Origin: Semisulcospira habei
Lineage: Eukaryota > Mollusca > Gastropoda > Semisulcospiridae
NCBI GenBank assembly: GCA_036245525.1
Contig: BTPG01000003.1
Location: forward strand, 213,808,449 to 213,872,448
Length of the DNA: 64,000 nucleotides
Direction: 5' to 3'
The position numbers were made by a program, and so were the translations under genes. Below the pieces are notes generated by a model. That model was not told the DNA's origin, ran no database searches, and worked only from the letters and a program-made list of their open reading frames with translations. The first letter of the stretch is position 1, and every line of letters begins with the position of its first letter. Positions 18,531 through 64,000 of the stretch are shown here, one piece after another.

Positions 18531-18679
<149 letters not shown>

Positions 18680-30848: not shown

Positions 30849-30930
30849 TTTTGGCTCCTTCGACGGGACCTCTTCAGTTGATTCAGTGGAAAGGGTAGCA
30901 GGAGAAAATAGCCAGCAGTGAAAAGCAGAG

Positions 30931-32124: not shown

Positions 32125-32274
32125 CAGGCAGAAGCAGTACCACGTCTCAACTCTGAGCTGCCGCTGTATTAGCCAATGATGTGACGTCATCCAATGACTT
32201 TGAGTCTAGAGAAACGCGAGTGACACCAGAGCTAATTGAATCTTTCAAAAAGAATGGACGCATCCAAGTAGGAG

Positions 32275-32571
32275 ATGGGGCTACATTTTTTACCAGTCTC
32301 AAACATCGCGCTGCCAGAGAATGAAGTGCCGAACATGCCGGTGGTGTCAGGATTCGTCGGCGACACGCAAGTGAGAGTGTTGAGAGACACCGGTTGTAGT
32401 TGCGTCATGGTGAGAGAAAACCTAGTAACTGAAGACCAGATGTTACAGGAGTGGACCACCCTCATTTTGGCCGACGGAACTGTAAGAATTATCCCCCTTG
32501 CCAATGTCAGAGTGGACACTCCGTATCTGAGAGGCGAGGTGAAGGTGCTATGCGTGAAGACCCCTGTCTAA
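32275..32571 (+). pseudogene. Retroviral-type aspartic protease
   Basis: About 99 codons with the catalytic motif LRDTGCSCVMV and a flap-like region (LILADGTVRIIPLANV). In-frame TAA at 32569-32571 is followed without frame change by DLIIGNVDCV, the usual end of this protease family, so one nonsense mutation cuts it. Confidence 0.8.
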
Positions 32572-32725
32572 GATCTTATCATCGGAAACGTCGACTGTGT
32601 CAGAAACGCAGACGATCCAGGTCCAGAGTGGAGACCTGAAACATATTCTGTTACCACAAGAAGTCAAGCAAAGAAGAGTCAGCAAACCATCCCTCTAAAA
32701 GTGGCGGACAACAAGGAAAGCCGCC

Positions 32726-34283
32726 GTGGTGAATAAGGAAAGGCTGGTGGAGCTACAGAGAGCCGACACCACGCTTGACAAGTTCCGGGGTCAGACCGAG
32801 CCCGTAACGCGAAAGGGAAAGGAAATAACCTTCGAAACCAGAAAAGATATCCTGTACCGGATATTCGACAGCAATGGAGATAAACCTGTGCGTCAAGTAG
32901 TAGTTCCTGAACCTTTGAGAATGCAGGTGATGAAATTGGCACATGATTCCATATTGGGAGGACATTTGGGAATCAACAAGACCCTCGATAGAATCCGAGC
33001 TGTCTTCTACTGGCCTGATATGGGAGGCGACGTCATCCGATTCTGCAGATCGTGCGACATATGCCAGAAAACAATCTCTAAGGGAAAGGTGCCCAAGGTT
33101 CCTCTAGAGAATATGCCATTGATCGAGAGTTGCCACATTCCTTCTGCCATTGAAGATAAGTAGCGGCTAATCTCTATGTTTGTTTGTTTGTCTATTTTGA
33201 CAAAGGGTATTTACCCGAAATATTAATAAATTGTGTTGTACCCGTCTTTTCTAAGCGTGTTTCTTTCTCCGTTGGGTACTTCTTTGCATATTACACGCTT
33301 GGCAGTCACCTTTTTGGTCTGGATTCATTGATCGATATGCCTTTCAAGCGGGTAGCTGTTGACCTCGTGGGGCCAATATCTCCTTCGAGTTAAGATGGTC
33401 ATCGATACATTTTGACCCTGGTGGACTACGCTACACGTTATCCTGAAGCCATACCATTGAAAAAGATCGACACTCCAACAGTAGCAGAGGCGCTCGTCGA
33501 CATGTTCAGCCGTTTAGAAATATCTGAAGAGATCCTGAGTGACCTAGGAACTCAGTTGGTCTCAGACTGCATGGAGGAAGTCATCCGGCTACTGAGCATC
33601 CGACACCTTACTACCACCTCTTATCACCCCATGTGTAATGGGCTGGTTGAAAACTTTAATGGAACTTTGAAGGCTATGTTGAAGAACTGTGCACCGAGCA
33701 GCCAAGACTGTGGCATAGATATATCAATGCCTTGCTCTTCGCATACCGTGAAGTTCCACAGGATTCGACAGGGTTTTCCCCTTTTGAATTACTGTACGCT
33801 AGGACTGTGAGGGGACCCATGCACATCCTCAAAAAGCTGTGGACCAAGGATATCGACGCACCTGAGGTGAAAATCAGCTACCAGTACGTCTTTGACCTGA
33901 GAGAGAAGCTGGAAGATACCCTCAGGATGGCTCGAAAAGAACTAGGGAAGGCGCAGAACAAGGGGAAGCATTACTATGATCGTAAGGCAAAACCTCGACG
34001 ATTCCAGCCAGGTGACCAAGTATTGGTTCTTCTTCCTACCGACAACAACAAACTTCTGATGCAGTGGAAGGGACCATACTTTGTCGACACGGTGGGTGGC
34101 ATAAATGACTTCAGAGTCAAGGTCAGCAACAAGGTGAAGACTTACCATGCTAATTTGCTGAAGAAGTATATTGAGAGAGGTCGTCAAAACAAAACACAAA
34201 TGGCCGCATCGGTGCGTCTTGTTGATGACGAAAGACTAGACAACGAGAACCTGTTTGACCTTAATGAACTGCGACTCAAATAG
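32726..34283 (+). pseudogene. Integrase of Gmr1-like gypsy element
   Basis: Zinc-binding H2C2 (HDSILGGHLGINKTLDR, CRSCDICQKT), then the catalytic core with D (VAVDLVGPISPSS), D (SDLGTQLVSD) and E (NGLVENFNGTLK), then a C-terminal GPY/F-type module (PGDQVLVLLPTDNN, LLMQWKGPYFV). Breaks: a 199-bp insertion at 33127-33325, an in-frame TAA at 33391-33393 and a frameshift near 33690. It directly follows the protease with no RT between. Integrase before RT is known for the Gmr1 group of Ty3/gypsy elements. Confidence 0.85.
33127..33325. mobile_element. 199-bp insertion in integrase, possible Penelope-like remnant
   Basis: Flanked by a 10-bp target duplication CATTGATCGA at 33117-33126 and 33326-33335. 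Contains a TTTG repeat and the hairpin GGGTATTTACCC followed by GAAATATTAATAAA, a layout reminiscent of the ends of Penelope-like elements and of hammerhead-like cores. Family identity is an inference. Confidence 0.6.
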
Positions 34284-43633: not shown

Positions 43634-46258
43634 ATGGACAATTCTCAAAGCCCTGGCCCATCAGGCTCATCAGGTTTAAGAAACGTGTTTCACCCAACAA
43701 ACTTGCCTATATCTAATACTAACAACGTCTATGAATCAATAGAAAACTCTTTTTCTGTCATACAAAAAAAATCTTATCACAGGCAGTGTGAAAATTCAGA
43801 TTGCTGCAAAAATAGAATTTACTAGAGTAGACGGTGAAGTGATTGTATCGTATATATCAACAAGACAACACACTGTTAACACACAAAGAGAATTGGAGAA
43901 CGTGTTTAGAGACAGACTATTACCTGACTTCCTCCAGGCAATTGACAGTGCAAAAATGAAGGGGTCTGGTTGGCACGAAGGTCATGTGCATGAACTACAA
44001 CTAAAGCAGTCTAGGTATCATCCTATATTAGGTAAATCATGGTTGGCACTGCCAACAGAGGTTGCAAACAAAAAGGCTGTTGTTAATATACAGAACAATG
44101 ACAATTTCTGTTTCATGTGGTGTGTGCTTGCTAAACTACACTTTATAAAGACAAAACCTGAACGTGTATCTAACTACACTAAATTTGTAAATGAACTCAA
44201 CTTCAGTGGCATTGAGTTCCCTGTTAAAATAGAGGACATAGACTTGTTTGAAAAACTAAATCCTGGTATATCTGTGAATGTGTTTGTGTGGGATAATGAG
44301 TCTGTTGACAAGTTACAACCAATTAGAGTATCATCACTTGCACCAACATATGGTCAGTCAGAAGATAAACATGTTGACATGTTGCTAATCGGCCCTACCG
44401 GTGATGACAATAACTTCCACTACACAATTATCAGAAATATGTCACATCTAATTCATGGACATACAACAAAACACAATGGCAAACAGGAAGTGTGTAAAAA
44501 ATGTTTACAAAGATTCTCTTCTATTGCAGTAGCACATAAACACGTCCTACACTGCAGGTCAGCTGATGACATACAAACTGTACTTAAGTATCCAGATCCT
44601 GGTAGTCAAGTGTATTTTAAGAACTATGGGAATCAACAAAAGCTGCCGTTTGTAGTGTATGCTGATTTTAAATCATTAGTAGTACCATATGAGGGTCCTG
44701 TTCCAGAGTCATTACCAAAGACTATAAAACTCAGTGATCAAGTGGTGTGTTCTTTTGGATACATTATTGTTAGGTCAGACGGTCTGCATTCAGAACCTGT
44801 TATCTACAGGGGTGAAAATACAGCATGTTTGTTTTTAACAGAAATGAGACATCTGTATAGTCAGGTAGTACAATATCTCACAACATGTCAGATGCCTTTG
44901 GTGATGACAGAAGAAGACAAACTGAAATTTGATACAGCTGAGACTTGTTGGATTTGTGAACAACCCCTCCAGGGTGATAAAGTTCGTGACCATGATCACA
45001 TAACTGGGCGTTACAGAGGTGCTGCACATAACAATTGTAACTTGTTATTAAAAACAGACCCTAAGACATATAAGTTACCAATCTTTTTCCACAATCTCAA
45101 AGGGTATGATTGACACATTATCATGCAGGCTGTGGATGAGTCTTACAAAAAAATTAGTTGTATTGCCCAGACAACTGAAAAATATTTGACTTTTAGATTA
45201 GATAAATTAGCATTTTATGACTCCATGCAACATTTGTCTTTAGGATTGGCTAGTCTGGCAGAAGGACTGACTGAGTATCCAATAACAAGTAAATATTTTG
45301 AGCCAGAGTTGATTAAGAAAGGAGTGTATCCATACGAGTACATTGATCACTGGGTTGTGTTTGAAGAAACAAGACTGCCACCAAAAGAGAAATTTTATTC
45401 CACACTAACTGGAAAAGGCATTTCTGACTCTGAATATCAACACGCTCTTGATGCATGGGATAAATTGGGGTGTCAGACGATTGGTGACTATCACGACCAG
45501 TACTTGAAAGCAGACGTTTGCTTACTAGCAGACGTATTTGAAAGTTACCGTGAAAAGGGTCTATTGCACTACAAACTTGACCCTGCCTGTTACATAACTA
45601 GTCCTGGCATGACATGGGATGCATTTTTGAAATCCAGTAAAATATCTATAGACCTGTTGTCTGATCGTACGATGGGTGAAATGGTAGAACGTGGATTGAG
45701 GGGAGGCATTAGTATTGCAGCAAATAATTATGCCAGAGCCAACAATAAATATATGGACGACCTTGGGTTTGACCCCTCGAGGTCAAGGTCATTCATTATG
45801 TACGTAGACGCTAATAACCTTTACGGATACGCGATGTGTGAGATATTGCCCTTGAAAAACTTTTGTCTGTATGATTTGTCACAGTATGACATAACACAGA
45901 TAACAAACTGTATTATAAATCATGACCGAAACGATGCAAAGGGTTGGATCTTTGAAGTTGACCTGGAGTACACACACCATCTACATGATTACCACAATGA
46001 TTATCCCTTAGCAGTTGAGAAAATGAGTATGACCGGGAAAAAAGAAGACACTAAACTTGTACCAAATTTGAATGACAAATTCAATTACGTGTGTCACTAT
46101 CGCCTGCTGCAGTTTTACATCAGACACGAGTTAGTACTAAAGAAAGTACATAGAGGTATTCAATTTGATCAGAGTGCTTTCATGAAAGATTACATAATGA
46201 AGAACACAACACTGCGTGCCAGGGACGGCAACACTGCATTTGACAAAGACTTCTTTAA
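43634..46258 (+). pseudogene. polB: Polinton DNA polymerase B, N-terminal part
   Basis: Start at ATG 43634 (SQSPGPSGSSGL). A frameshift in an A-run at 43763-43771 leads to the main frame. Features in order: N-terminal domain; zinc-finger-like CKKCLQRF...H...H...C near 44490-44555; exonuclease Exo I region VVYADFKSLV, with Lys where Asp-x-Glu is expected; an endonuclease VII/HNH-like CWICEQPL...DHDHITGRYRGAAHNNC (about 44947-45040); Exo II FFHNLKGYD; an in-frame TGA at 45111-45113; KADVCLLADVFESYR; palm motif A YVDANNLYGYAM near 45802. The gene is cut at 46258 by the TTAA-flanked insertion and continues at 57457. Confidence 0.9.
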
Positions 46259-46592
46259 AGGGCAGCTCTCTAGTAAAATGGTGGTTCCGGCGATGGGTCG
46301 CTTACCATTTCGGCATGGGGCTTCGTGTTGATGCAATGAATTGAACTTACAATCAATCAGCCACAAAATAAACATATCAAAGTCACTTTCAGTCCACAAA
46401 GTGTACTTACTTGTGTACAGTTCAAGCAGAAAAACATATAAGAAGTCACACATCATCTGTAATTCATGGTACCCGGTTCCGGAGACTGCCGAACAAATTT
46501 TCAGATTTGCCGCTCGGCGGAAGTGACATCACAGGCCTGATCTCGGTTTGTTTACGCCTAGCGGGACAGCGTGCTAGCTTGTGACAGAGAAA

Positions 46593-48373
46593 ATGAGCTC
46601 ATCAGCTGAAAGTTCTGATTCGGACTCTTACGTGGATTCGTCGGAAAATGAGTGTTTTGAAGCAGGTGCACCTCGAGGCCTCAAACCTTATATGTTTTAT
46701 CCCCTTGCACAGACAAATGGAAAAGAGCGTACGGAAAGACCAACCACGCCGGAAAAGCCAGTGCGCTGCGAAAACCCCACGGACTGGTAAGCATACATAG
46801 AACAATACATTCATCGTATTATATTTTCATGTGCACTTGTGTTTTATTATCGTTGTTATTAAAGTCGAAGTTAATGATGCGACATTGCAGAAGTTTACCA
46901 TATGCTCAGAGCCTGGCCTAAGAATGCCTCAAGTTTCTCACAGCATGTTCACTGCACCTAGTGACCTATGCTAATGTAAACTAAAATTGCATGGTTATCT
47001 CAATCTTTGTTTGTTTGTTTGGTTTTTTGTTGTTGTTTTGTAAATAAAGGTATCACCTCTGAATTGCCACTAAATGCACCAATTGATGATTTGATCCACA
47101 AGTTTATTTGTTCAAGAATTTGTACTTCAGAGTTCAAGTAATACACTTAAAAGGTTTGATCTGCTGTGTTTATAGGGTGCTGGAATGTGTGTACCCACAC
47201 TTATGAGATATATATCCAGGTGCACGAATGGATTGGTTCCCAAGCTGTAAACTAATACTAATAGCTGGTATCTGAATATTTAAAATGCAATTTTGACCTG
47301 AAAACTGTCTTTTTCATGTCTTCAGGTGCAAGTGTGGGTGCTGTGTGCATGGTTCTGCTCCGGTCAACAGATTCTGTTGCCTTGAGGATGACCGTTTTCA
47401 CAAACGAATTGAAGATGGCAAGGTGGAAGCCGACACTGAATTTTCCTGCATCACTAGGCACCCCTCTTTCGAAGCAGTATGCCTAAACATGGATGTGCTG
47501 TGCGTGGCTTACTATCAAATGCGACAGAACAATGAAGCAGAAAGGCAACATACTGAGGATGAGTGAGTTACTTCTGGCGTTTGTGTGTGGGGTAATATCT
47601 ACAGGAACAAACATCTGCGGCATTTTAAAGAAATTTAAGGTCTAAGTGAAGTTGATAAGGCCAAGAAAAATGAAAGGTGGGAGTGGTCTGATGAATAGTT
47701 TGGTACTTTTCCACTGGATTAATGCATGCACTAAAAATCATGATGACAGGGGGTACTTAAAAAAGTGCGGTCAAGCCTGTGTGGGGAGGTGGGGTGGAAC
47801 TGCTCTGTGAATTTTTTTTTTAATTTGTACTATTATGATAAAGTTATATAAAGTTGCAGTGGTCATCGTTTCAGTATTAGTACTAGTCCATTGCTAGTGC
47901 TACGTTAGTACATAACTTATGAGTGTTTTCACTATACTTATCACTTTACCATGCAATACTCTGTCACATGAGACAGTGTACTCACATGAGAATGTTCCCC
48001 ACCTCACCTGTGAAAATTAAGTGGGATACAGGATAAAACCATACTCTAGGTACACCATCACCTATGGTTATTTTTATTCCAGTTTTCAGTCACCACACCT
48101 GTGACATGGAGAATATGTGTGTTTGTGATAATAGCATGTAATTGGTAGTGATATTTTGCTTTTACTACATGAAACGCTTACTTTGAATCCGTCATTATGT
48201 GTTACAGGACCATGAGATACACAGCATACAGGCAAGTCATCCGCTGGTGTTACGGCTGGCTTGGAAAACACAACCGAAAGCCTTTGCCATCGTGTGCCAT
48301 GCACAAGATTCGTCAGAAATTTCCAGCAGGACAAAAAGGCTACAAGGGCTTTAAATTTGTGGACAGAAGCTGA
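46593..48373 (+). CDS. P2X7 'ballast'-like cysteine-rich protein, three exons
   Basis: Exons 46593-46786, 47326-47562 and 48208-48373 join in phase (GTAAGC and GTGAGT donors, AG acceptors) to about 198 codons with no stop. Exon 1 encodes an acidic Ser-rich N-part and a Pro-rich linker. Exons 2-3 encode the zinc-coordinating domain found at the P2X7 receptor C-terminus: WCKCGCC at the exon 1/2 junction, RFCCLEDDRF, FSCITRHPSFEAVCLNMDVL, MRYTAYRQVIRWCYGWLGKH, LPSCAMHKIRQKFP and KGYKGFKFVDRS. There are no membrane helices, so it is not a receptor. A poly-A signal (AATAAA) is near 48517. It starts 334 bp inside the left end of the transposon. Role unknown: nucleotide/zinc binding or a transposition accessory is inference. 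Confidence 0.85.
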
Positions 48374-48961
48374 CAAACTCGCTTTCCACAAGAACTTGCA
48401 TACGACGACTACCTTTATCTCATTAATCCCCATGTGCATGCAGGCACAGGTTTTGTAAATCGTACCAATGTCAGCATGCAGAAGGGGGTGAATTGTGCTG
48501 TGTGTACATGTAGATGAATAAACATTTGTAGAGCTACCTATTTTGGCTTGTTCATTACTTAGACCAGTGCTCTGTACCCATTCTGTCAGGAAGGTAACAT
48601 TGGTGACTATTTGCGAGCAAATGAAATGCAGCAAGGGGTGTGCATGTTATTATGTGTCAAAAGTATGCATGTACAAAAACTAGATTTAAAATTGTGCGTC
48701 TATTGGGTCACATTTCTTATGCTCAAGTATTCATGTGTACAAGTTTGGCAGATGGAAAGACAGAAATCAGTACATTATTACCCTTGTGTATGGAAGCTTA
48801 CATATTTACAAAATGAAACCCTATTCTGCACTAACAAGAAAAATAGGAATGTCACACCTATGTTCAAGACAAAGCAACAAAGATGCTTGGAAAGTGCAAA
48901 GTAGTTATCTTTCAGATGAATCTGTATTTCACATTTGCCAACTTCACTCATGAGTATATAT
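48374..48961. other. Intergenic part of the transposon
   Basis: 3' UTR of the ballast-domain gene, then AT-rich sequence without a gene. Confidence 0.5.
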
Positions 48962-49380
48962 TGTGACCCTCTCTCACAAAATCAGTCTTAACTCTCATTT
49001 TGGATGTTTTGACATATATAAATTTCTGAAAACTACAATGTTTGCTGATTACTGTGATATATGACTGTATGCTGTAGTGCAAAAATTGTAGAAGTTGTGT
49101 TTAAAGTTGTTAAAGCCTCTGGCGGCCATTTTGAAAAAAACAGCATGTGAAGTTTCTGTGTGCAGCATAATTGGGGCCAAGGGCAGACTTTTAAAATCAT
49201 TTTTAACCTATTTAATGGCATTTTTCATGATAAAGATTTTAACCATACGATTCTTTGGTGTATGTAGAATACATTTCTGCAAAAAAATGAAAATGACCCA
49301 GATTGACCCCCACCATATATTGCGTGTAGAGCTGATCGGCTCCCTGCGAGTTAAGACTGGTTTTGTGAGAGAGGGTCACA
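48962..49380. mobile_element. MITE with 33-bp terminal inverted repeats
   Basis: TGTGACCCTCTCTCACAAAA (start of the left repeat, 48962-48994) is matched in reverse at 49348-49380 with two mismatches. The total is 419 bp with no coding capacity. The flanks TATAT/TATG allow a TA or TAT duplication. It sits between the two genes of the Kolobok-like element. Confidence 0.85.
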
Positions 49381-49601
49381 TATGTTATCATTTTAATCAA
49401 CAGGTCACGCACTCAGATGAACAGGAAGACAAAAAAGCCACCAATCATGTTCATTGAATAAATAATATATATTTTTCATGCTTCATTATTTAAGAAACAT
49501 TGCAGTATTTACTATAGTGCATCCAAGAACAAGCATTCAATTTTCTGTTTAGAGTTTTTCCCATGCTGAGGATGAAATTATAAATTTTCCTTCGAGATAC
49601 A

Positions 49602-52390
49602 TAGTTAAACAAGTTTGATGCTTTGTGTGTTAGCAAAATCACACGAGTCCAGTGGTCTTTTCAGTATGACGGTAGTAGTATGAATCATACAGACATGTAG
49701 TACACGTTTCCATGTGGCAAAAGAATAAATATATGCATCAGGTATCTGTAAAATCAGCTATTTAAAAAAAAAAAAAAACAGTGCTGACAGTGTGCTCTTT
49801 GCACGCTGACAGTTACAATTACAAATCACTCAGACCATGAGATGGAAATTTCTTTGTGCAATTATTACAGCAAAAGACAAACCCGCTGTGCTGGCCTGCA
49901 ACCAGCAAAGCCAACTACAACAACAAAAGTCGCTCCGACAGATAACTATCATCGTCTGCTGGGCCATCAAAATCAGCGTCGGGGACATCACTGCCATCAC
50001 ACATGGTCTGTCTGGGGCGAAACCTATGTAAATGCTTGGCTACCGCCTCATCTCTTGGCGCACGGTCTGCCTTCTCGGTCAGGTAGCCAGGTCCTTCCTC
50101 TCGGATGTGGTCAATGCTTTTGCGGAGGGCCCCAGGACTTTCACTGTGCCTCTGGAGGCGGGCCCATTGCAGTTTAACAGCATATCCTAGAAAAATAACT
50201 TAATATCAGCTTTTGTTTTCACTTAACAACTAGGGCTACAATTACATGAACAACAATTCGGACATCTCAGTGCAACATTACAATAAACAAATAGCTGTAA
50301 TTTCTGTAGGTAGTAAACAGCATCCAGATTGCAAGGATGGTTGTACATTGCTTAACGTCCCGACAGCAACAAGAGTTTCTCAGGACGTGCCTGCACTGAT
50401 TGTGAACAAACTAAACTAAACAAAATATTGAATGTATGTCGCCAGCCGGTCTAATACACTAAATAAACCAAATCCATTTAGCAACACACATCCAATATCA
50501 GGAGTTACAGGCAGCGCAGACAGTAGGGAGAGTTTAAAAAAGGTGAATACAGGTGAATGGACCAAGGGTAGACAGAAACACATGCCCCAGAATATAGGAA
50601 AACCCACCGTGGGAACTAAAAAGTAGTTAACCCCACCCAAGTCCCCTAGGGCAGACCAGGGTGGGGGAAGAATGCAAGGAAAGTGATGACATTGCAACTA
50701 TAGCCTTTCAGAGGACAAGTTTCAAATTTTAGATTCCATTTTTTTATGTTGTTGCGCCCTGCTGCTGGCATGGATGGGATGCGCATTATAAGTTGACATC
50801 ACACCGCAGGCACTACATTCATAATATTTTAAATGACAGCAGTGTTTTGCAATTGTAATTCAAATAACGTATTGTAACACAACAGTTTTCTTACTGTGTG
50901 TCCTGTTGTGTCTGGCCTCATATGAGCTTCAAAGTTTTTGGCCTTGCCATAATTGACCTGGAATCTTGGTTCTCCTTCTTTGGTGGTCGTCTGGTCCCTG
51001 TTGTTGTTTTCTTTATAATGCATGGCCGCCAGTTTGTGCCTGCAACACATATGCATGCAGATATAATAGATGTCCATGGTTAAATGGCAGTAAATACTAA
51101 TAATAGACAAACAAGTTTGATGCTTTGTGTGTTAGCAAAATCACACGAGTTCAGTGGTCTCTTCAGTATGATGGTAGCAGTATGAATCATACATACGTGA
51201 AGAACACCTTTCCAGTTGGCAAAAGAATAAATATCAGGTATCTGTGAAATCAGCTATTTAAAAAAAAAGTACTGACAGTGTGCTCCTTGCATGCTGACAG
51301 TTACAATTACAAATCACTTTATTGTCCATTGAGATGGAAATTTCCTTGTGCAATTATTACAGCAAAAGACAAAAATGGTGTGCTGGCCTGCATCCAGCAC
51401 AACCTACTACTACAACAAAAGTCACTCTGATAGATAACTGTCATCATCTGCAGGGCCATCAAAATCATTCTCAGGGACATCACTGCCATCACACATGGTC
51501 TGTCTGGGGCGAAACCTATGCAGATGGTTGGCTACCGCCTCATCTCTTGGCACACGGTCTGCCTTCTCGGTCAGGTAGCCAGGCTCTTCCTCTCGGATGT
51601 GGATGCTTTTGCGGAGGGTCCCAGGCCCTTCACTGTGCCTCTGGAGGAGGGCCCCTTGCAGTTTAACAGCGTATCCTAAAAAATTAACTTAATATCAGCT
51701 TCTGTTTCACTTAACAACTGGGGTTAAAATTACATGAACAGAAATTCGGATATCTCAGTGCAACATTACAATAAACAAATAGCTGTAATTTCTGTAGGTA
51801 GTAAACAGCATCCAAATGCAAGGAGAGTGATGACATTGCAACTATAGTCTTTCAAACTATAGTCTTTCAGAGGACAAGTCTAAAATTTTAGATTCATTTT
51901 TTTCTGTTGTTGTGCCCTGCTGCTGTCATGGAGTGGATGCGCATTACAAGTTGACATCACCCCGCAGGTGCCACGTCCATAACATCTTAAATGGCAGCAG
52001 TGTTTGCCATTGTAATTCAAATAACGTATGGTAACATAACACTTTACTTACTGTACGTGTGTTCTGTTGCGACTGGCCTCACACGTGCTTCAAAGTTTTT
52101 GGCCTTGCCATAGTAGACCTGGAATCTGGGTTCTCCTTCCTTGGTGGTCGCCTGGTCCCTGTTGTTGTTTTCATTATAATGCATGGCTGCCAGTTTGTGC
52201 CTGTAACACATATTCATGCAGGTATAATAGAGGTCCATGGTTGAATGGCAGTCAATACTAATAATAGACAAACAAGTTTGATGCTTTGCGTGTAAGCAAA
52301 ATCACACAACATGAGTCCAGTGGTCTCTTCAGTATGATGGTAGCAGTATGAATCATACAGACATGCAGGACACCTTTCCAGAATAAATAC
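49602..52390. repeat. ~1.15-kb tandem duplication, 2.1 copies
   Basis: Units start at 49602, 51103 and 52260, each with ACAAGTTTGATGCTTTG and CAGTGGTCTCTTCAGTATGA. The third is a partial copy. Each full unit contains the last two exons of the transposase. The first unit is longer because an interspersed repeat (50338-50672) inserted after the duplication. In that unit the terminal exons (about 50895-51039 and 49915-50187) have lost the shared phase and look decayed. Confidence 0.88.
50338..50672 (-). mobile_element. Interspersed repeat, copy D (reverse)
   Basis: Reverse complement of copies A-C, from TGTACATTGCTTAACGTCCC to CAGACCAGGGTGGGGG. Flanked by TGCAAGGA (50330-50337 and 50673-50680), a single-copy sequence in the sister unit near 51817, which proves insertion after the duplication. 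The internal poly-T is missing. Confidence 0.85.
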
Positions 52391-55300
52391 ATGCATCAGT
52401 TAACCGTGATACCACCTATAACCACATACAATCTCTGTTTGACATTGCGGCAACCTTCTGAACTGATCTCCTTACATTAACAAGGCAGTGCATAAAATGT
52501 GACCAAATCCTCTGTTGCAATGAGCAGGCCTTGTCGCTGTTCGCTGCACAATGCCTTGCAGCAAACTAATTTTATCTAGCAGGAAGATGCCCTGCACTGC
52601 ATCCAATGCCCAAACCTGATAATACACATAAGACTGACCTTGTTCGCATTCCCAGCCAACTAAAGGCAGTGTGCTTGGGAGCGAAGTGCAGCAGTAAGCT
52701 ATGTAAGGCCTCCAGGTTCGAGGTCTGGTCGCCAGAGGAGAGTCGTGCAACGTCGTTCAACAGCCTCTTATCTGCTATGATTTTTTCAAGGGAAGTGAAG
52801 GCTTTTGTGGCTAAAACGGAGACAGACATGCACGATAGTCAGATATAAGGTTCATTAAAATGAGCTGGTCAGAAACATTAAAGTCACACCTAATGTGAAA
52901 GGATAACTCAGAATGTTGCCGTCATGATACATATACGCATACAATTAAGACAGCGTCAAAAGTGCCTTTCTATGAAGAATGCTTGAAGATGTCTATTTGG
53001 TAAACAATACAAATTTTACAATGTACAGTGCAAACTTACTGGGCTCCAACCATTGCCTGGCTTGTTCCTTCTCCAGCTCTCCATGCTCACATGCAGGGAA
53101 GTGGGGACCGGGAAGGCCAGAGTGGATGTCCTGTATATGATACAGCAGAGACAACCACTTGGCCTTCTTCGTCTCGCCACAGTCGCTGGGAGTTGCCACA
53201 GCTGCCCAATATAGGTGGTTGCGGATTGCCTTCTTCCATAGGCCAATATCCTCACATCCTTTCACCTGACTCAGCTTGTCAAGTTTCTTCCACACCCCTG
53301 GAATTAAAACAGAAGTACAAGTTTTTGACTAACACTTAACGTATGAGTCAATAAAGATTGCAGGTTGGCGGTTTAGAATCATGTAAGTCATGCAGTTTAT
53401 TATGCAGAATTGAAAGCAGCAATATAAACAGATTTAGTATGATAGACAATAACACAAAACGCTGTGTACACCCATCAAACAACAAATGTTCCAAAACATA
53501 TAATATGGTACCTTTCGCGACATGCCAAATGTCAAACAGGTGCTGCACGCCATCATGACGGTCCCTCAGATACTTCGTTATCTGTGGATGGCGATCGGTG
53601 ACCATTGTGTTCACCGTCAGTCCTCTGTCGGTCAACGCTGCCAGAGTCCGCTGTAAGCCCTCCAGTTCACACCACGTGGAATTTTTTACTTCATTGCTCT
53701 AAAACACAACATAAACAATAAATTTTCATCATAACAAAGTAACACAGTCCCAAAAGTCAGTTTTGTCCTCTGTAGACTACAGACAAGTTCACATTTAGCA
53801 GGGACACCAGTGAAAGGATGGTGCCATCTGTTTCCTGCTGTAGTGTATTCAGGTTGAAGGGGCCTACAGAGGAGAATGCGACACCATGTTGTCAGTAAAA
53901 TGTATTCATTAATTTACAAAAAGATGTGTCCATTTTTTCACAACAGAGTCTGACAGAAGTGAACCAAGTCATGTTAAAAAAGTTGTTTCAGGCTACACAG
54001 AAATTAATTACCACATATGTAAAAAAAGCAAATACATGTAGGAAAAAGGAGATTAAACCTGAATGCAACAGCTGACACACTGACCTGCACCACCTGTACA
54101 TCAATGACTTTGTTGATGCGCTGATCTATAACTGTGTAGGATCCATATTTCGCGCAGTGCCCAGGGCTGTCGGATCGCCCGTCTCCAACAAGCACCAACG
54201 GTTGACCATCATCTTTCAGTTGTCTGATGATCTCCTGTTGACAAACACATTAATCACTAAGTTATAACATAGTAAAGCATGAAATCCAATCCTAAATAAG
54301 TACAGTAAACTTTGGATACAACAAAGTGCCAGCTAGGCCAGATTAGTTTGATGTTACAAATAAACTATGCTGCATCCACCACTGTAGTATGACCACACTA
54401 TGAATAGCAATAACAATGAATACTACAATTTTTTGGAGATACCATCTGTTGCCCAGATGCATCTAAAAAGTAGAAATTGGCAGAAATAAACATTACATTC
54501 CTGTATGTGTCAGTATGTAACTGTCAACACACATCTGTATAGAAATGTAAACAAAGGTCCCATTTTCATACACCACACCCACCCTCTGCTCCTGCTCCCA
54601 CTCCAGTTCCACAATCGGAAACAGGTAGTCATGTTGGTGGCGAAAGAACGTTGACATGTTGAATACCCTAACGTTGAGAAGTTGGAGCACTCGCAGGGCC
54701 TTCGCTGGGAGGCTTCCTGAAAATAAAATGGCGGAAGACAGCAGAAGGTTCCCCAAAGGCATCTTCTGCTGGAATGGCTGACTGGCCCACACCCGTGAGA
54801 AGCCACACTTCTCATTTGTGCAGGTTTGCAGAATGCGGATGCAGGTTCCGACTGTCTCTGCAATGTGTGCTGTAGCCGGCTCTGCACATTTTGTGCAGGT
54901 GTCGAAAAGTAGTAGCAGATTACGCTGGAAGACAATATATTTGTCTTCCAGATGGGCAGCTGGTCGTGGCTCTGGGAGGTTGCTGCACACCACAAACATA
55001 ACACGAATAAAAATAACTTTCATTGAAAGGACCACTGACTCAGCACACAGATTCACTTTGCTGTCTTGAGTGAGCAAAACAAAAACAACCAAGAAAAACA
55101 GTAATAATATATACTGACTTCCATAAAACAAGAAGGGCAAAGCCCATATGGCTCATTCGTATCGACCCACCCGCACATGTCCGACAAAACGTTTCTTGTC
55201 AAAATATGGCTATTTTTTTAAAACCCATTTCCTGAGCTCTTGTGACCCTTGACCTTACCGAGAGGTCATGCAAATCAGTATACATAGATAGGTCTTACCA

Positions 55301-57106
55301 TCAGATATCTCTGTAGCAAGTTTGGGTTTGAATAGTATTTGCGAAAAAAATATGTCTGAGAGAAAATGCCAACGTTAAAGTTTACCACGGACGACACCGG
55401 ACGGAAGACCATTGGCCCAGAACATAGACTCACTTTTGGTTTACACTTTGGCCAACAATGCCAATAAATTTCAAACGTTGTTTCCTATACTAAAACATAT
55501 TAACTGTAAAGAGTCAACTTGTGTGACAGATCCGAGTACTGCCAACCAGTTAGAATCGGTCTGCATGGTGTGCAAGTTAACTCTTTACAGTTAAGATGTT
55601 TTAGTTTTAGCATGGGAAACAACATTTAAAATTTTCACGTTTTTTATGGACTATTGCTATACATACAGACGCTCTGCCTGGTCAGGCTGTGTGTTCTCCA
55701 GCTTCTTCTCATTTTCATCCTGCTGTGAAGCAGCTGATGTTGATGGGAACAGAGAAAGCGGAGGGGCACTTATCAGGCTGCACTGCACTGCCATATCAGC
55801 ACAGCTCGGCTTCATGCACGATTTCCCATGCTGGACGGAAACATCAGCCACAAGAGGTTTGGCAAGAATTCCTACAAGTTAAAAAAACAACAAACAACTA
55901 ATTTAATAATTTTGAGGTCCTCTCCAAATACTGCAGAGGCCATGACCACAATCTGGCAATGGTACTGTTTAAATACAAATTGACATGAACTGTTTCCTCA
56001 CAAACATGAATATGTGTACGAGGCATAGATGCAGAACACTTACTCTTGCTCCTGTGTCTCACTCTTGCTTGAACACCTTTGTTGTGTTTCTCAAGCTGCG
56101 AACAGCTGCCTTCGTGAAGATCCGGCATGGGGATTTCTTCGCTGACGTTGAGCTCGTAATTGTCTTCAAAGTCATCATCAGATATGCTGGCCTGATCGGG
56201 TGCTACTGATGTACACGCAGGGGGTGACTTTGCTTGTGCGTCTCCCTGCACAGACACGTGTCTGTTTTCTGTAGCCTGCAATTAAAGCAATTAAAAGAAT
56301 TTCAACTCATCCACAGATGATAAACTTCATAAAGCTTACACACATACTGTGTAAATTAATCAAAATGTAACTGCTTTATACTGAGAGTCTTATTCAATTA
56401 TTATACAAATGTGCTATTCACTCAGAAGAAAACGTGGAATACAAATGTATTGAGTATCCGCACAAAAGATTTCACAAGGATAAGCAGGCAAAAGCTGGAA
56501 GTCTTTCCTGTGTAGTATATCACCTTGGACCATTATGCATGCACGTATACAAACTGCTATTTATAGATTGAATTCCAATCGGCAGTAGTGTCAACACTAC
56601 CACTTAGTACCAGCTGGTTGATGAGAGCCAAGCCTGCCTCACAAACGCCCCCCCCCCCCCACACACACACACACACACTCTCCCAACAAACACACACACT
56701 AAACTTTTATCTTCATCTACCTAAAATATTCAGAATATGATACTGTGGCTTACCTCTCTCGCTAGCTGCAGCTTCATTGCGAGGACATTTCTGTGCTTCT
56801 TCTCCGCTGCGATGGACGGTGTTGATGAAGTGCGATCGGCCGGATGCTTGGATTGGCTCCGGGTTTTAATAACAACTTTTCCGCAAATTTCATCCTGAAT
56901 TTCATTAGGTTGGAAAAATCGTCTTCCTTGAAATGTGCGGAGCAGATTATCGTCCTTTTATTTCCCTTCTGGAAGTCTCTGCGAGTGGAACGGACGAAGC
57001 GGTCCCATGCCGGCCACAAAGTTTGATCTGTTGGATACGTGTGGAGAGATATTTCTTTGGTTGCTCTGTTGCTGCATCCACCAACAACACAAACTTGCCC
57101 CGGCAT
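51422..57106 (-). CDS. THAP-domain Kolobok-like transposase, ten exons
   Basis: Minus-strand exons: 57106-56754, 56275-56044, 55871-55667, 54982-54583, 54234-54085, 53698-53512, 53297-53040, 52810-52639, 52200-52052, 51675-51422. All have GT/AG borders and matching phases, about 786 codons. Exon 1: THAP finger (CVVGGC...CSAHF), then a frameshift near 56830 and a helix. Exon 4: CTKCAEP, PFQQKMPLGNLLLSSAILFS, FFRHQHDYLFP. Exon 5: VLVGDGRSDSPGHCAKYGSY (first acidic site). Exon 6: MVTDRHPQI, HLFDIWHVAKG. Exon 7: NHLYWAAV, HIQDIHSG. Exon 8: TSNLEALHSLLLHFAPKHTA (likely Glu). Poly-A signal near 51319. It would bind the element ends and cut at TTAA. The exon 1 frameshift is the only break. Confidence 0.88.
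55473..55627. repeat. Foldback hairpin in transposase intron 3
   Basis: AAACGTTGTTTCC...AACTGTAAAGAGTCAACTTG at the left pairs with CAAGTTAACTCTTTACAG...GGAAACAACATTT at the right. Arms are ~52 bp with a ~50-bp loop. It lies between exons 4 and 3 and is possibly a MITE remnant. Confidence 0.75.
56648..56700. repeat. C-tract and (AC)n in transposase intron 1
   Basis: A short CCCCC run followed by AC repeats. Confidence 0.9.
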
Positions 57107-57456
57107 ATTTCTAGATCACCACACAAAGAGTTCACGCAAAACTGAAAACGATACAATTATCACACTGCGTACAGTCCACGTGTTGATACTTCGACAAACG
57201 GGAGCGGATGGGACCCAGCGCGTCATGCTTGTGACGTTATGTCATGTGACTTTTCCGAAGATTGCCGAAGATTTTTTTTTCGGAGGCCAGGTTTTATTTT
57301 TGCTAATATCAAAGTATCTACGCAAAGGCAAAATAAACCGTGCACATATTTCCATTCCTCGTGCTTTTTTCAGTTGGATAAATATATTTTATATCACGAA
57401 ATGACTATTTCATGATTTGATGAAATGTAGCTGGGCACCCAAGAGCTACACTTTAA

Positions 57457-58319
57457 GCTTATGAACAATGCCTGTTTTGGCAAGACAATGGAAAATCCTC
57501 ATCACAGAAAAGATGTGAGACTGGTCACAACTGAATTGGGTGCAATTAAACTTACAGGCAAGCCACAGTACACAGGGTACAAAGAGTTTCATTCATCATT
57601 ATATGCTGTGTCACTCAAAAAAAAGATTGTCAAACTGGACAAGCCAGTATTCATTGGTATGGCAATACTTGAGTTATCAAAATTGTTGATGCTTGAATTT
57701 TATTATGATTACTTCAAACCAAAAAATCCTGAGTGTCGATTGTTATACACTGACACTGACTCTATGATCATTGATGTGTGTACTGAAGACTTTTATGAAG
57801 ACATGAAAACAGAGTTACACATGTATGACACGTCTGATTATCCTAAAGACCATCCACTGTTTAGCACACAAAACAAGAAAGTGCCTGGTAAGTTTAAAGA
57901 TGAACTGAATGGTGTGCCGATAGTTGAGTATGTTGGACTGAGATCAAAAATGTATTCTGTACTGCACCAGAAGGGAAGTCAGTCAAAAGCCAAAGGAATA
58001 AAAAAAAAAAAAAACAGCAATAAAAAATAAAGACATTCGTCATGAGCATTACAAGCAAGTATTAGATGGTGCATTGATGCCTGATTATCCAAACAAGTCA
58101 CTGAGATCGAACAAACATAATCGTGAAATGATTCAAAAACAAAAAAAGTCACTGGCAGTTGGGGACACAAAACGCGTGTTTCACACCAAGGAAAAAGCTT
58201 ATGCACCTGGTCATTACAGGCTCAAGTTATCTGAAGACATAGCTGATGAACTGGTTGATGAATTAATTGATGAGTTAGTTACTGAAATGAGTAACGGTGT
58301 CTGGGGGAATAATCTGTAA
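57457..58319 (+). pseudogene. polB: Polinton DNA polymerase B, C-terminal part
   Basis: Continues the polymerase after the insertion: palm motif B LMNNACFGKTMEN near 57458, motif C LLYTDTDSMIID near 57743 with both catalytic Asp residues, then thumb. A frameshift in a 13-14 A run at about 57999-58012 interrupts it before the last ~100 residues (HYKQVLDGALMPDYP ... TEMSNGVWGNNL). It ends 35 bases before the 3' end of the oppositely oriented integrase gene. Confidence 0.9.
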
Positions 58320-58353
58320 TTCTTCTCTGACAAATGCCCTTTGTGGCGCAGGG

Positions 58354-59253
58354 TCATACAGGTAATATATTGTTGCGTCTGGACCGGGAATTATTTTTTT
58401 TTATATTATGAACGGATGTGGACCAGATGGGGTCTGTCGCCCTGCGTCTGACGTCATTTTCTGATTCTCCTGGTTGATACAAATATCTCATCTGTTTAGT
58501 AAATAAACTTGTGTCTGGTGCTGGGGTTGATCCTGTTTTAGGTTCTGTAATTGTTTTCAATTTAATGGCATCAGCAGGCTTTGGGTGTCCTTCATTGTTC
58601 ATTGCTTTTATCACATGTGGTAATCTCTTTACCCATTCAGTGTTACGGGTGTCATGCATGAGTTCCTTAGAATACTGGTAACTGAAAAGTCTTTCTGATA
58701 ACTGTTTGTTAAAGTTCTCTACAATTGCCTGTGATCTGTGCACACCTGGAATACCTCGTCTGTCTATTACACCATGCTTCGCAAATAACTGATTAACAGC
58801 ACCTTTGAAGTCTGATCCGTCATCAACTTGCACTAGTCTGGGGTATCTTAAAGGGCCTCTTTTATAGATACTAGATAAAGCAGTCGCAACAGTGTTAGCA
58901 GTTTTGTCAGATATGGGTTCAGCGTCTTTATACCTTGAAGCTATGTCTACAACAGTTAATGCGTATTTGTATCGTTTCTTTCTTATTGTATCATGTGGAA
59001 GAAACAGGAGGTCCATTTGGTGCGTGTCATTAGGTGATGTGTTCTCAAAATGAGGTCTTGTTATTTTTCTTGGAGCAGGGAGATATATCTGCCAAATTGC
59101 TTGTCTCTGTAACCATTGCTTGACTTGATTGAGTGTTATATCTCCGCCCACAGCGGAATGTAATTTCTGAATAGCTGTTTGCCCTTTCCAATAGCCTGAT
59201 GGAGAGTAATATATTTTTGATAGTTTATTTTCGGCTGCCATTTTTTCTAGCAA
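58354..59253 (-). CDS. int: Polinton integrase (retroviral-type)
   Basis: 299 residues, uninterrupted. The N-terminal part (YYSPSGYWKGQTAIQKL, QVKQWLQRQAIWQIY) resembles the helical domain of Polinton integrases. Catalytic core: D in HQMDLLFLP, D in VQVDDGSDF and E in AIVENFNKQL, the last two about 35 residues apart, as in DD35E rve integrases. The C-terminal part is basic (DVRRRATDPIWSTSVHN, SRSRRNN). The first codons overlap the end of the next gene upstream by 29 bases. It inserts the element DNA into chromosomes. Confidence 0.92.
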   Translation of the reverse strand: MLEKMAAENKLSKIYYSPSGYWKGQTAIQKLHSAVGGDITLNQVKQWLQRQAIWQIYLPAPRKITRPHFENTSPNDTHQMDLLFLPHDTIRKKRYKYALTVVDIASRYKDAEPISDKTANTVATALSSIYKRGPLRYPRLVQVDDGSDFKGAVNQLFAKHGVIDRRGIPGVHRSQAIVENFNKQLSERLFSYQYSKELMHDTRNTEWVKRLPHVIKAMNNEGHPKPADAIKLKTITEPKTGSTPAPDTSLFTKQMRYLYQPGESENDVRRRATDPIWSTSVHNIKKNNSRSRRNNILPV

Positions 59254-59659
59254 TGAAAACTCCTGTAAAATAAACTAATGTCATTCCCACTAGAACAAAG
59301 ATTATCTCCCCGTTTCTTTGTTCTGTACTCGGTTTGTAATAGTCACTTAGTTTTGGTTTTGGGATAGACATGTCTTCACCCATGACAAGAAAATATTCCC
59401 TGATTGCTTCGTCTGTATTTGAAAACGTATGTTGTGCGTGGCCTTCAAGCCTCAATCTTTCATTGATGAAATCAAGTTTCTCAATTCTATTCTTTTCATA
59501 ATCCTGCTGCGCTTGTGCAAGTTTCTCAGATGCTTCATTGTGAAGTTTCATTTCTTCTGCACTCTCTTCTCTACCCACTTTTGAAAAGAGATAATTAGAG
59601 CCACTGAATGCTAGGGCGTTAACCATCGCACCTCCTATCATAATAGCTATCGTCGCCAT
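59225..59659 (-). CDS. Polinton-conserved small membrane protein (144 aa)
   Basis: The N-terminus is glycine/alanine-rich and hydrophobic (MATIAIMIGGAMVNALAF). Next is a charged coiled coil (EEMKLHNEASEKLAQAQQ), then a C-terminal transmembrane helix (IIFVLVGMTLVYFTGVFIA) with a basic end. The layout is familiar from Polinton/adintovirus virion-associated small proteins. Exact role unknown. Uninterrupted. Confidence 0.75.
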   Translation of the reverse strand: MATIAIMIGGAMVNALAFSGSNYLFSKVGREESAEEMKLHNEASEKLAQAQQDYEKNRIEKLDFINERLRLEGHAQHTFSNTDEAIREYFLVMGEDMSIPKPKLSDYYKPSTEQRNGEIIFVLVGMTLVYFTGVFIARKNGSRK

Positions 59660-59670
59660 ACTTATTTTAT

Positions 59671-59901
59671 TTACATAGAAACATTTTCAGGAATAATCCC
59701 TTGCTTAACAAGAAAATCTTTTGTCGCAATTGACGCTGTAACAACTGCAATTAGCTTAGCGCTGTCTTCAATGTCTAATCTACTGAGGTCTGCTGATTTC
59801 ATTTTGAGTAGACTTTTTCCCAGCATAGAATAAGCTACTGCTAATCCACTGATTACGGCAGAGTGATACACAAGGTTCATTATGTTCTTTGAGTCATTCA
59901 T
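59671..59901 (-). CDS. Polinton-conserved small protein (76 aa)
   Basis: Hydrophobic N-terminal half (LVYHSAVISGLAVAYSML), basic GKSLLKMK, and a second hydrophobic stretch (AKLIAVVTASIATKDFLVK). Probably two membrane-associated helices. It lies 11 bases upstream of the 144-aa gene in the same direction, as in a compact viral cluster. Function unknown. Confidence 0.7.
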   Translation of the reverse strand: MNDSKNIMNLVYHSAVISGLAVAYSMLGKSLLKMKSADLSRLDIEDSAKLIAVVTASIATKDFLVKQGIIPENVSM

Positions 59902-59955
59902 TTTTTAAGGCAAGAAAAATTAAAATAATATTTTTATTAGTGCATGATAAATGGG

Positions 59956-60396
59956 TCAACGGCTTTGGGTGTTACTGGTAATGTGGCGACTTCTGGTGTT
60001 GTTTTTGGAGTGTCTGATTTTTTGGTCAATGTACGAGTTTGTGGTTTGTATTTTTTTGTATAATTGATAACCTACGTAACCAAATCCGACAACAAATCCA
60101 GCAACTATATATTTTGTTGATTGAGGTTCAGGGACAGGGTCAGACTTAGTTGTTTGTCTTTCACTTTGATGTGGGTGTGATAGTCTTGTTGGTGTTGGTC
60201 CTGACGGTCCTGACAGTGGATCAGTTACATAAGCCTTTTCTGTTTGTGCTTGAAGCTGTAATTTTTTTTGTCTGTTATATTCGGCTAATCTTTTTCCAGC
60301 CTCAACCCTGCCTGGACTTTTAGCCTTAGTCACAGTTTGAACCTGTGTCAAAACAGGGACGGGGTTCAGTTGTGGAGTCGTCTGGGTTTCGTCCAT
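59956..60396 (-). CDS. Polinton-conserved protein with one TM segment (146 aa)
   Basis: Pro/Thr-rich start, basic segment KSPGRVEAGKRLAEYNRQKK, Pro-rich linker, transmembrane helix YIVAGFVVGFGYVGYQLY and a basic Arg/Asn tail. It overlaps the upstream 175-aa gene by about 70 bases in another frame. The overlap could be genuine or reflect a frameshift. Possibly a minor virion protein. Confidence 0.65.
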   Translation of the reverse strand: MDETQTTPQLNPVPVLTQVQTVTKAKSPGRVEAGKRLAEYNRQKKLQLQAQTEKAYVTDPLSGPSGPTPTRLSHPHQSERQTTKSDPVPEPQSTKYIVAGFVVGFGYVGYQLYKKIQTTNSYIDQKIRHSKNNTRSRHITSNTQSR

Positions 60397-60853
60397 TTTC
60401 TTCTGCAGTAAAATTTATTTTCGAAAAATCAATATGACTCCCTGTAACAAGTAAGGTTACCACAGGTGCAAGGTAATTTCCAAACTTGTAAAACATGACG
60501 TATGCTAATTTACCAATTGAACTTGAAACAATAGGATTGCTTTCAAGGTCGTGTGATAGACTGTCACAATCTACAGGTAGAAAGTGACTCACTGCTTTTG
60601 TGTATAGACATACAAGAGATCGACTTAAATCACGTGTCATTAGTGAGGCAATGTGGTTTTCATATTTAGCATGAAGTTTGATTAGCTCGTCAGCCGTAAG
60701 AGATTCAATATCCTCTGTCATGTATTGTTTCCCGAGATAAGTCTTTGATTTGCCTGAGACAATTACAGACGAAAGACGCTGTTTCTTAGAGTCTAAGTTT
60801 TTGTTCTCTACCGCATTGATATCATTCAATAGAAGGAGTTCATCAGGGTTCAT
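60326..60853 (-). CDS. Polinton-associated protein (175 aa)
   Basis: Acidic start (NPDELLLLNDINAVE), basic middle, helical region TADELIKLHAKYENHIASL and a hydrophobic segment (KLAYVMFYKFGNYLAPVVTL). No catalytic motif recognised. In order and strand with the virion cluster. Confidence 0.6.
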   Translation of the reverse strand: MNPDELLLLNDINAVENKNLDSKKQRLSSVIVSGKSKTYLGKQYMTEDIESLTADELIKLHAKYENHIASLMTRDLSRSLVCLYTKAVSHFLPVDCDSLSHDLESNPIVSSSIGKLAYVMFYKFGNYLAPVVTLLVTGSHIDFSKINFTAEENGRNPDDSTTEPRPCFDTGSNCD

Positions 60854-60883
60854 TTATAATGTAATTTAAAAAAATAATAAAAA

Positions 60884-61231
60884 TTAACTCTGCTGGCTCA
60901 CCTTGTGTAATACCACTTTATTAACTGTAACACTGACAATATAAACATTTAGTTTGCGTAGTTGTTTAAATATGCTATAACAAACTTCTCCTAACCAACC
61001 ATAGTTGGTATCATCAACTTTAAAAGTAGGTGTCTTTAAATCAACTGTCATGCACTCCACACCTGGATGCTCATCAACATAATCCAAAGTCACACTATAT
61101 GTAGCATATATTTCCAATGGTGCTGAAAGGCTTATGTAAGTCTGTTTGGGTGATATTAAGTCAGTAAAGTTCATAACATCTTTGAAACAGTGTGTGAGAT
61201 CAATCACTTGTATGATTTGTCCGTCTGTCAT
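60884..61231 (-). CDS. Unknown Polinton protein (115 aa)
   Basis: Beta-rich looking sequence (YISLSAPLEIYATYSVTLDY, VYIVSVTVNKVVLHK). Not recognised. Between the packaging ATPase and the 175-aa protein, with short gaps on both sides. A small capsid-associated (penton-like) protein is possible from position and size but unproven. Confidence 0.55.
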   Translation of the reverse strand: MTDGQIIQVIDLTHCFKDVMNFTDLISPKQTYISLSAPLEIYATYSVTLDYVDEHPGVECMTVDLKTPTFKVDDTNYGWLGEVCYSIFKQLRKLNVYIVSVTVNKVVLHKVSQQS

Positions 61232-61258
61232 TTTTATTAGTCAAGACAAAAGAATAAA

Positions 61259-61850
61259 TTAATTTACTAACCCATACCCTGTGGGCTGATCTGTCTTTAA
61301 AATGAGCTTTAGATGCTTAGTTGATCTCAGTTTATTTTTTACATCATCCCGTTCATGCTTATTTGGGATGACGTCGTTTTCCCTGAGACAGTCTTCAAGG
61401 CTGTCACAATCCTTACAGTAAAACAAACAGATAAACTTTAACTGTTCTCGAAAATCCTTTAATACAGCATTATATTTCTGAGTGAGAATCCATACACTGA
61501 TGTTTGCATGTCTGCCACTGAAAGCAAGTTCTGCTAATGTGTTTCTCTTCTTGACAATGTCTTTTTCTGCTGAGCAGTCATCAACAACAAACAATGTTGA
61601 CTGTCCTTCAAATTGTTTGTAAAAATATTGTAGGTAGTCATTCAGTTTTATCTCAGGGTCAACTAAGTATATGTTGCTGTCAGTCCAAATGAATAAACGG
61701 TTGTGATAAGCTTTGTTGTGTTTGATTGTAGGACAAAATATTACAATGTTTTCAAAATGGTGGATGTATTTTGTTTGTAGATTTACCACACCCTGTGGCA
61801 CCACAAAATAATCCACAGTGTGGGTCAAGGGTCATCAAGCTCCGATTCAT
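61259..61850 (-). pseudogene. DNA-packaging ATPase (FtsK/HerA, A32-like), frameshifted
   Basis: ATG at 61850 starts a frame with the Walker A motif GATGCGKST. The rest (IHHFENIVIFCPT, Walker B STLFVVDDCSAEKDI, sensor SGRHANISVWILTQKYN) is in another frame open from 61828 to 61259. A small indel near 61770-61800, between Walker A and the next strand, therefore disrupts it. The enzyme would pump element DNA into capsids. Confidence 0.85.
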
Positions 61851-61886
61851 TTTAATACACAATATAATTTTAATATATGTGTCCAC

Positions 61887-63155
61887 TTAGTCTGCACTCT
61901 GTATATTGAGTTGTGCGTCATATATCAGGTACAAATATATATTTATGGCTTCGGCTTTTTCAACCTTTTTTTGTATCTGGATTGTAATTCCATCACTGCC
62001 GTTTTCAACAGTACGACCTGACCCATGAAGGTAATCATCATCTGTACTACGAAGGTCTAGCCAAAGTGCATATTTGTTTGTCAGGTATTGACCAATCCTA
62101 ACGTCATACAGATGTAAATCTTTGCACACAATGTTTGCTGGTTTATCTCTAATCCTTCCACCCGCAAAATACTTTGTGATCTCATCGTAGTGTTGATAAG
62201 GTAACATTCCAGATGCGTACACTTGATTAGGGCGGCCTTCGATTGTACAAGACAAATGTGTAATCTTTGGATTGTAGGATTTTTCTGAATCCCGTTTGTA
62301 TGGAGCTGCTGGTTCAACAAACAACATAAGGATACCTTTCAGTGACCTGGCAGGTGTGTTCAAGTTTATGTTCCACATTGGGTCACTCTTGTCTTTGGGT
62401 ATTAAACTATGTCTAATCACCCTGTCATAATAAATTGGAAGTCTTGACTGGTACTGATTTTGTATGAGTCTGGCTAGATCAGTGTGTGTGACAATTTCAT
62501 ATTCCAAGGAAATGTTAGAGATCTTATATGTTGCACTAAGATCAGATGATTTAATAACTTTGGAGTAGTCATTGAAAGTTAGTTCAAAACTCAGACGGTC
62601 ATTCAGTGCTCCTTGATAATAAGGCAGATGAGCTGTTAGGATTTCAAACTCAAGTGGAATGTAAAATCTAGTTCCATATGTTTCTGCTATAATAATTTCC
62701 TTGGGTACCCCAGTAGTTACCTTATCTCCGGCATTGATTCGAAGTTCACCAACATTATCTGGCTGTATGCCTTGATAAATACGGTCTTCTCGTTCTTCTC
62801 TTGTGAGCCAAAGGTCTTTGTAACAGTAGAACACATCGGAGTCGTCAAGACTAAACACTTCCTGTCCTTCAAGTTTTACTTTAATAGTTCTAACAATTGC
62901 TCTGCCAAGATTGTCAACCAGTGTTCTGTTCACATCTGCATCTGATGAAAGTTCAATATTAAATGCTAGGCGTGCAGTGCCAGGAACAATAACGTCACTG
63001 GGGCCTAGGTTTGGAAACTTGACTGTAAGTGTTTGGTTCTGGTCTATGGTACTTGGATTGTTTGTGATGACGATTGATTGTCTTATGCCCTTAACACCCA
63101 GAGGCTCACGTAATTTTCTGTATGGGTCTAACTTTGATCCGTAAGACTGTGTCAT
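61887..63155 (-). CDS. Major capsid protein (double jelly roll)
   Basis: About 422 residues from Met MTQSYGSKLDPYRK (an upstream in-frame Met at 63170 is less likely). N-terminal jelly roll: NPSTIDQNQTLTVKFPNLGP, VIVPGTARLAFNIEL. Middle: YIPLEFEILTAHLPYYQG, DRLSFELTFNDYSKV. C-terminal: RPNQVYASGMLPYQHYDEI, TNKYALWLDLRSTDDDYLHG. This is the hexon-like protein conserved in Polintons and adintoviruses. Uninterrupted. Confidence 0.88.
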   Translation of the reverse strand: MTQSYGSKLDPYRKLREPLGVKGIRQSIVITNNPSTIDQNQTLTVKFPNLGPSDVIVPGTARLAFNIELSSDADVNRTLVDNLGRAIVRTIKVKLEGQEVFSLDDSDVFYCYKDLWLTREEREDRIYQGIQPDNVGELRINAGDKVTTGVPKEIIIAETYGTRFYIPLEFEILTAHLPYYQGALNDRLSFELTFNDYSKVIKSSDLSATYKISNISLEYEIVTHTDLARLIQNQYQSRLPIYYDRVIRHSLIPKDKSDPMWNINLNTPARSLKGILMLFVEPAAPYKRDSEKSYNPKITHLSCTIEGRPNQVYASGMLPYQHYDEITKYFAGGRIRDKPANIVCKDLHLYDVRIGQYLTNKYALWLDLRSTDDDYLHGSGRTVENGSDGITIQIQKKVEKAEAINIYLYLIYDAQLNIQSAD

Positions 63156-63231
63156 TTTTATTATGCACAATAAAAAATAATAAATTAATAAAACAATGGC
63201 AGCAGGATGATTTAATCATGAAGATTTTGAA

Positions 63232-63954: not shown

Positions 63955-64000
63955 GTGATTAGTATTGGGAGGGAAAAACTGAAAACACAAGTTAACAGGA

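Follow-up and report, generated by a model that had tools for sequence, protein, structure and literature searches.

The window (the whole 64,000-nt stretch of DNA analysed) contains two convergent genes enclosed by a pair of TTAA sites. The first lies on the plus strand (46593-48373) and codes for a protein with the cysteine-rich ballast domain that P2X7 receptors have at their C-terminal end; the second lies on the minus strand (57,106-51,422) and codes for a THAP/DDE transposase in ten exons. We refer to the first as KolX, the name given to the second protein of the Kol0 Kolobok families, which encode a transposase and KolX (Kojima and Bao, 2022; PMC9587614). The gene model and its Pfam and PDB matches bear out an earlier note on this DNA, which described a complete, three-exon ballast-domain gene inside Kolobok-like ends and convergent with a transposase. 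The distances that it gave between the gene starts and the termini, 334 bp for KolX (46593-46259) and 346 bp for the transposase (57452-57106), are exact. The features of the locus are collected in the table.

Table. Features of the Kolobok element and its right flank, with positions in the window
Feature	Position	Strand	Remarks
Left target-site duplication, TTAA	46255..46258	.	sole TTAA within 46150-46400
Left terminal inverted repeat	46259..46270	+	starts AG (RR); 9/12 identical to right end
KolX exon 1	46593..46786	+	N-terminal part; holds none of the conserved cysteines
KolX exon 2	47326..47562	+	carries 6 of the 7 conserved cysteines
KolX exon 3	48208..48373	+	seventh conserved cysteine, C-terminal ballast part, stop
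AATAAA, possible KolX polyadenylation signal	48517..48522	+	
Diverged tandem second copy of the transposase exon 9-10 region	49601..51257	.	85% and 88% identity, in pieces, with parts of 51103-52419
Transposase exon 10, includes stop	51422..51675	-	
Transposase exon 9	52052..52200	-	
Transposase exon 8	52639..52810	-	presumed last catalytic E (QTSNLEA)
Transposase exon 7	53040..53297	-	
Transposase exon 6	53512..53698	-	presumed second catalytic D (TDRH), DxxH signature (DIWH)
Transposase exon 5	54085..54234	-	presumed first catalytic D (GDGRSDSPG)
Transposase exon 4	54583..54982	-	
Transposase exon 3	55667..55871	-	
Transposase exon 2	56044..56275	-	
Modelled transposase exon 1 with THAP domain	56754..57106	-	353 nt; frame lost ahead of splice site
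Right terminal inverted repeat	57441..57452	-	element terminates in CT (YY)
Right target-site duplication, TTAA	57453..57456	.	sole TTAA within 57300-57520
rve integrase	58354-59274	-	Pfam E 2e-9
A32-type ATPase	61259-61831	-	E 2.8e-7
Putative capsid	61887-63215	-	no family match

The three KolX exons are joined through GT...AG introns into 597 nt that read as one 198-aa frame. The protein matches the Pfam family P2RX7_C (PF20478; E 5.1e-17; score 62.8 bits, cut-off 23.5) and no other, the P2X channel domain (PF00864) being absent from its Pfam matches. Among PDB sequences, all four matches at E <= 0.001 are to P2X7 (best 6.4e-8). Protein searches recovered 2 relatives from the single sequence and 41 from a three-sequence profile. 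No KolX relative was confirmed in viral contigs. The closest relative (P0001) is 67% identical to KolX. Its AlphaFold2 model has a mean pLDDT of 64.3 and an unreliable N-terminal part. All 14 of the chains that the model matches at E <= 0.001 are P2X7, and the TM-scores, taken over the length of the query, are 0.33-0.44.

We aligned KolX with 13 of the 41 relatives and a stretch of rat P2X7 (15 rows in total). The rows were sorted by sequence into free-standing (11) and P2X7 (4) groups, the latter comprising the rat row, which is a cut stretch, and three others, two of which have no channel domain in their database listing. Cysteines matching rat C477, C479, C482, C498, C499, C506, and C572 are conserved in every row. 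C573 is a cysteine in all four P2X7 rows and in 2 of the 11 free-standing ones, and an alanine in the KolX of the window. Of the rat P2X7 residues that contact guanosine, as taken from Rump et al. (2020; PMC7016195), R546 is kept throughout (15/15) and R578 in 9 of 11 free-standing and all P2X7 rows (4/4). H547, R574, and K583 are present in all four P2X7 rows and in none of the 11 free-standing rows. KolX thus resembles the P2X7 ballast domain (PF20478; PDB 6u9v) in its seven cysteines, R546, and R578, but differs from it in having no channel domain, in the alanine at C573, and in the replacement of H547, R574, and K583. The residue comparison largely repeats a known result, because Rump et al. 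already state that invertebrate proteins retain R546 and R578 alone among the GDP contacts (PMC7016195). The invertebrate free-standing ZCD proteins of that study are without most of the P2X7 guanosine residues, as is KolX here. With three of the five guanosine contacts missing, the alignment suggests that guanosine binding of the P2X7 kind was not the original role of KolX. It leaves room for KolX contact with another nucleotide or with nucleic acid, and GDP binding is perhaps still possible in a sponge protein (Rump et al., 2020; PMC7016195).

Exons 2-10 of the convergent gene form a single 668-aa frame through eight GT-AG introns, and exon 1 carries a THAP domain (Pfam E 2.6e-13). The Pfam Mutator family (PF20700) fell just under its cut-off (24.0 versus 26.5 bits). 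We rejected piggyBac, another user of TTAA sites, because no piggyBac family was among the Pfam matches and THAP was found instead. At least 177 database proteins are related to the transposase at E <= 1e-3 (best 4.6e-148), a count obtained by scoring the 7,999 candidates that shared most words; no relative was confirmed in viral contigs. In an alignment of the window product with 13 proteins chosen from the best 120 of the 177 relatives, which are those listed, D297, D364, D385, and H388 (668-aa numbering) are invariant in all 14 rows and E511 is conserved in at least 90%. With the catalytic residues assigned by motif, the protein is a DDE transposase with the C/DxxH signature of Kolobok between the second D and the last E. 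Also invariant in the 14 rows are C461 and H463, which lie between the DxxH and the last E, where Kolobok transposases have a zinc finger, and are the only two residues that we assigned as candidate zinc-finger ligands. An acorn-worm (Ptychodera) protein (P0003) aligns in order, on the minus strand, to exons 1 and 4-9 (7 of the 10 exons) and has no match to exons 2, 3, and 10. P0003 also matches the second copy of exon 9, more weakly.

The transposase gene shows signs of decay. Four GT sites in exon 1 would be phase-compatible donors, but every one of them lies inside the THAP part, and none after the THAP domain rescues the frame. Since exon 1 is out of frame and has no alternative donor, the copy is probably dead. 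The tandem duplication that involves the 3' exons spans 49601-52419, and the second copy of exon 10 likewise has an open frame. The intron between exons 3 and 4 holds an imperfect palindrome (55466-55634). A MITE-like palindrome (48962-49380), whose 36-nt arms are 94% complementary and start TGTGACCCTCTCTCACAAAA, is nested in the Kolobok element.

The element itself spans 46,259-57,452 (11,194 bp) with TTAA on either side, as expected of the target-site duplication of a Kolobok transposon; these borders are proposed from one insertion and one copy of the element. Its ends, AG...CT, follow the 5'-RR ... YY-3' rule stated for Kolobok termini (Kojima and Bao, 2022; PMC9587614). Read inward, AGGGCAGCTCTC (left) and AGTGTAGCTCTT (right) are identical at 9 of 12 positions. 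The window has 24,691 pairs of TTAA sites with a spacing of 1-20 kb, and 47 of these pairs (0.19%) reach an agreement of 9/12 or better. A pattern built from both ends with 2 mismatches permitted finds just those two sites, and shuffled sequences average 1.58. Because other TTAA pairs and the shuffles do likewise, the inverted repeat is weak evidence alone and serves as supporting rather than decisive. The 340-bp sub-terminal ends share only matches of 7-17 bp in a blastn self-comparison (E 0.084 or worse). The length of 11.2 kb includes the duplications and the MITE-like palindrome, and we counted it against a Kolobok interpretation.

The borders gain further support from long plus-strand frames on both sides, one open to 46331 on the left and another open from 57431 on the right. 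By motifs of Polinton polymerases, we take them to be the putative halves of a single polymerase gene split at the TTAA sites, an identity that would fix the borders independently. The left and right pieces, compared separately and unjoined, have no polymerase match in Pfam, PHROGs, or NCBIfam and no PDB or phage-record match; the left piece has no relative in viral contigs, and its frame has an Endonuclease_7 match of 23.5 bits, below the cut-off of 23.6. Beyond the right border are the integrase and ATPase genes and the putative capsid gene, for which we found no Pfam, PHROG, or PDB match. We assign 43743-46254 and 57457-64000 to a Polinton-like element, the probable host of the insertion. 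This reading of the flanks draws on the integrase and ATPase matches and otherwise on the gene order and motifs of Polintons. The Kolobok element is most likely nested in a Polinton-like element.

Taken together, we consider it very likely that the locus is an old, probably inactive, KolX-bearing Kolobok transposon of the Kol0 kind, inserted at TTAA and most likely inside a Polinton-like element. The element encodes a KolX with the ballast domain, which characterizes Kol0, and the assignment to Kol0 is suggested by this gene content rather than by a tree. It shares with the Kol0 lineage (represented by Kolobok-1_XT) a DxxH DDE transposase, a ballast-domain second gene, TTAA, and RR...YY ends (PMC9587614), but the copy in the window is 11.2 kb long, the first exon of its transposase is out of frame, and its 3' exons are duplicated. 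Kojima and Bao describe KolX as clearly similar to P2X7 residues 476-595 and remark that the membership of ballast-like proteins in Kolobok families had previously not been pointed out (PMC9587614). The earlier note had proposed a Kolobok-type vehicle for the ballast gene. The sharing of one element by gene and transposase supports this, and Kojima and Bao agree, but the idea was already in print (PMC9587614). Its other suggestion, a hint at how the receptor acquired the domain, accords with their derivation of P2X7 from KolX (PMC9587614).

The word "cargo" in the earlier note, in contrast, is probably wrong. In the account of Kojima and Bao, Kol0 elements have KolX as their second protein (PMC9587614); on that evidence, we read the ballast gene as the element's own second gene and rejected a cargo picked up by the transposon. 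A host or stray KolX-like gene captured once by the element, with no lasting association, would agree with the free-standing ballast genes of many animals, for which an ancestral linkage to two markers was proposed (Rump et al., 2020; PMC7016195), and with the fact that the pairing is seen here in a single copy. We nevertheless regard a single capture as very improbable, given that KolX is reported to be shared, as a second protein, by an entire lineage of Kolobok elements (PMC9587614) and that both genes begin at similar distances from the termini. The published two-protein description of Kol0 speaks for a real pairing of KolX and transposase (PMC9587614). Both proteins occur in Ptychodera flava and Biomphalaria glabrata among the matches listed with names, a co-occurrence in species and not a linkage. 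Also very improbable is that the ballast gene lies beside the transposase by chance, the real element being smaller and the TTAA borders coincidental: the modest terminal repeat, equalled by other TTAA pairs, and a split-polymerase reading of the flanks with no database match behind it would permit this, but the long plus-strand frames stop and start beside the same two TTAA sites, each the sole TTAA locally, the end bases suit Kolobok, and the distance to the nearer end is much alike for both genes.

We also compared the KolX-bearing transposon to two related systems. KolobokP belongs to the same superfamily and pairs a DDE transposase with an oppositely oriented second gene, but that gene codes for a His-Me finger nuclease and the ends are long direct repeats (PMC9587614). 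KolobokP was ruled out because the element in the window is without long terminal direct repeats (~450 or 660 bp); a blastn self-comparison found no direct repeat pair >60 bp at its two ends. Nanor and the free-standing ZCD proteins are, like KolX, short and end in the same cysteine domain (PMC7016195). They differ in being presented as genes of an ancestral synteny, in a main text without any word that begins with "transpos" (PMC7016195). Nanor is likely a domesticated KolX according to Kojima and Bao (PMC9587614).

In the mechanism that we propose for the KolX-bearing element, the THAP-DDE transposase would cut and join DNA at the TTAA ends. KolX would be a small ballast-fold protein, possibly stabilized by zinc, and could have an accessory role, serving as a folded scaffold for contacts with the transposase, the ends, or a host factor. 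The service of KolX to the transposon is the question that the locus raises, and it may be the original function of the ballast domain. The ballast domain of P2X7 would share descent with KolX, consistent with the conclusion of Kojima and Bao that P2X7 arose from the fusion of a P2X4-like receptor gene with KolX (PMC9587614). The locus fits this 2022 proposal, in which an inflammation receptor owes a portion of its tail to a mobile element. It is an example of a transposon, here with exact borders proposed, that owns a gene for the P2X7 ballast domain. The ancestral synteny of Rump et al., from sponges to molluscs, could be partly linkage within Kolobok elements, with the transposase as the conserved neighbor; we hold this to be doubtful. 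If it is true, many free-standing ballast genes of animals would belong to transposons or descend from such genes by domestication.

The link between KolX and Kolobok, and what it implies for P2X7, has been in print since 2022 (PMC9587614), and no new principle is added here. What is new is solely this copy, its decay, and its likely nesting in a Polinton-like element. A transposon review mentions Kolobok and P2X7 once each (PMC9319628). Apart from these two papers, the literature search on KolX or Kolobok and P2X7, which left most subscription journals outside its reach, returned unrelated subjects as judged by title.

Elsewhere in the window, two other TTAA-flanked pairs have perfect 12-nt inward repeats (18101-19277 and 29345-30763) and are possibly inverted-repeat elements of the TTAA type. 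Open frames at 30922-34283 resemble, by eye, the gag and integrase-bearing pol of an LTR retrotransposon.
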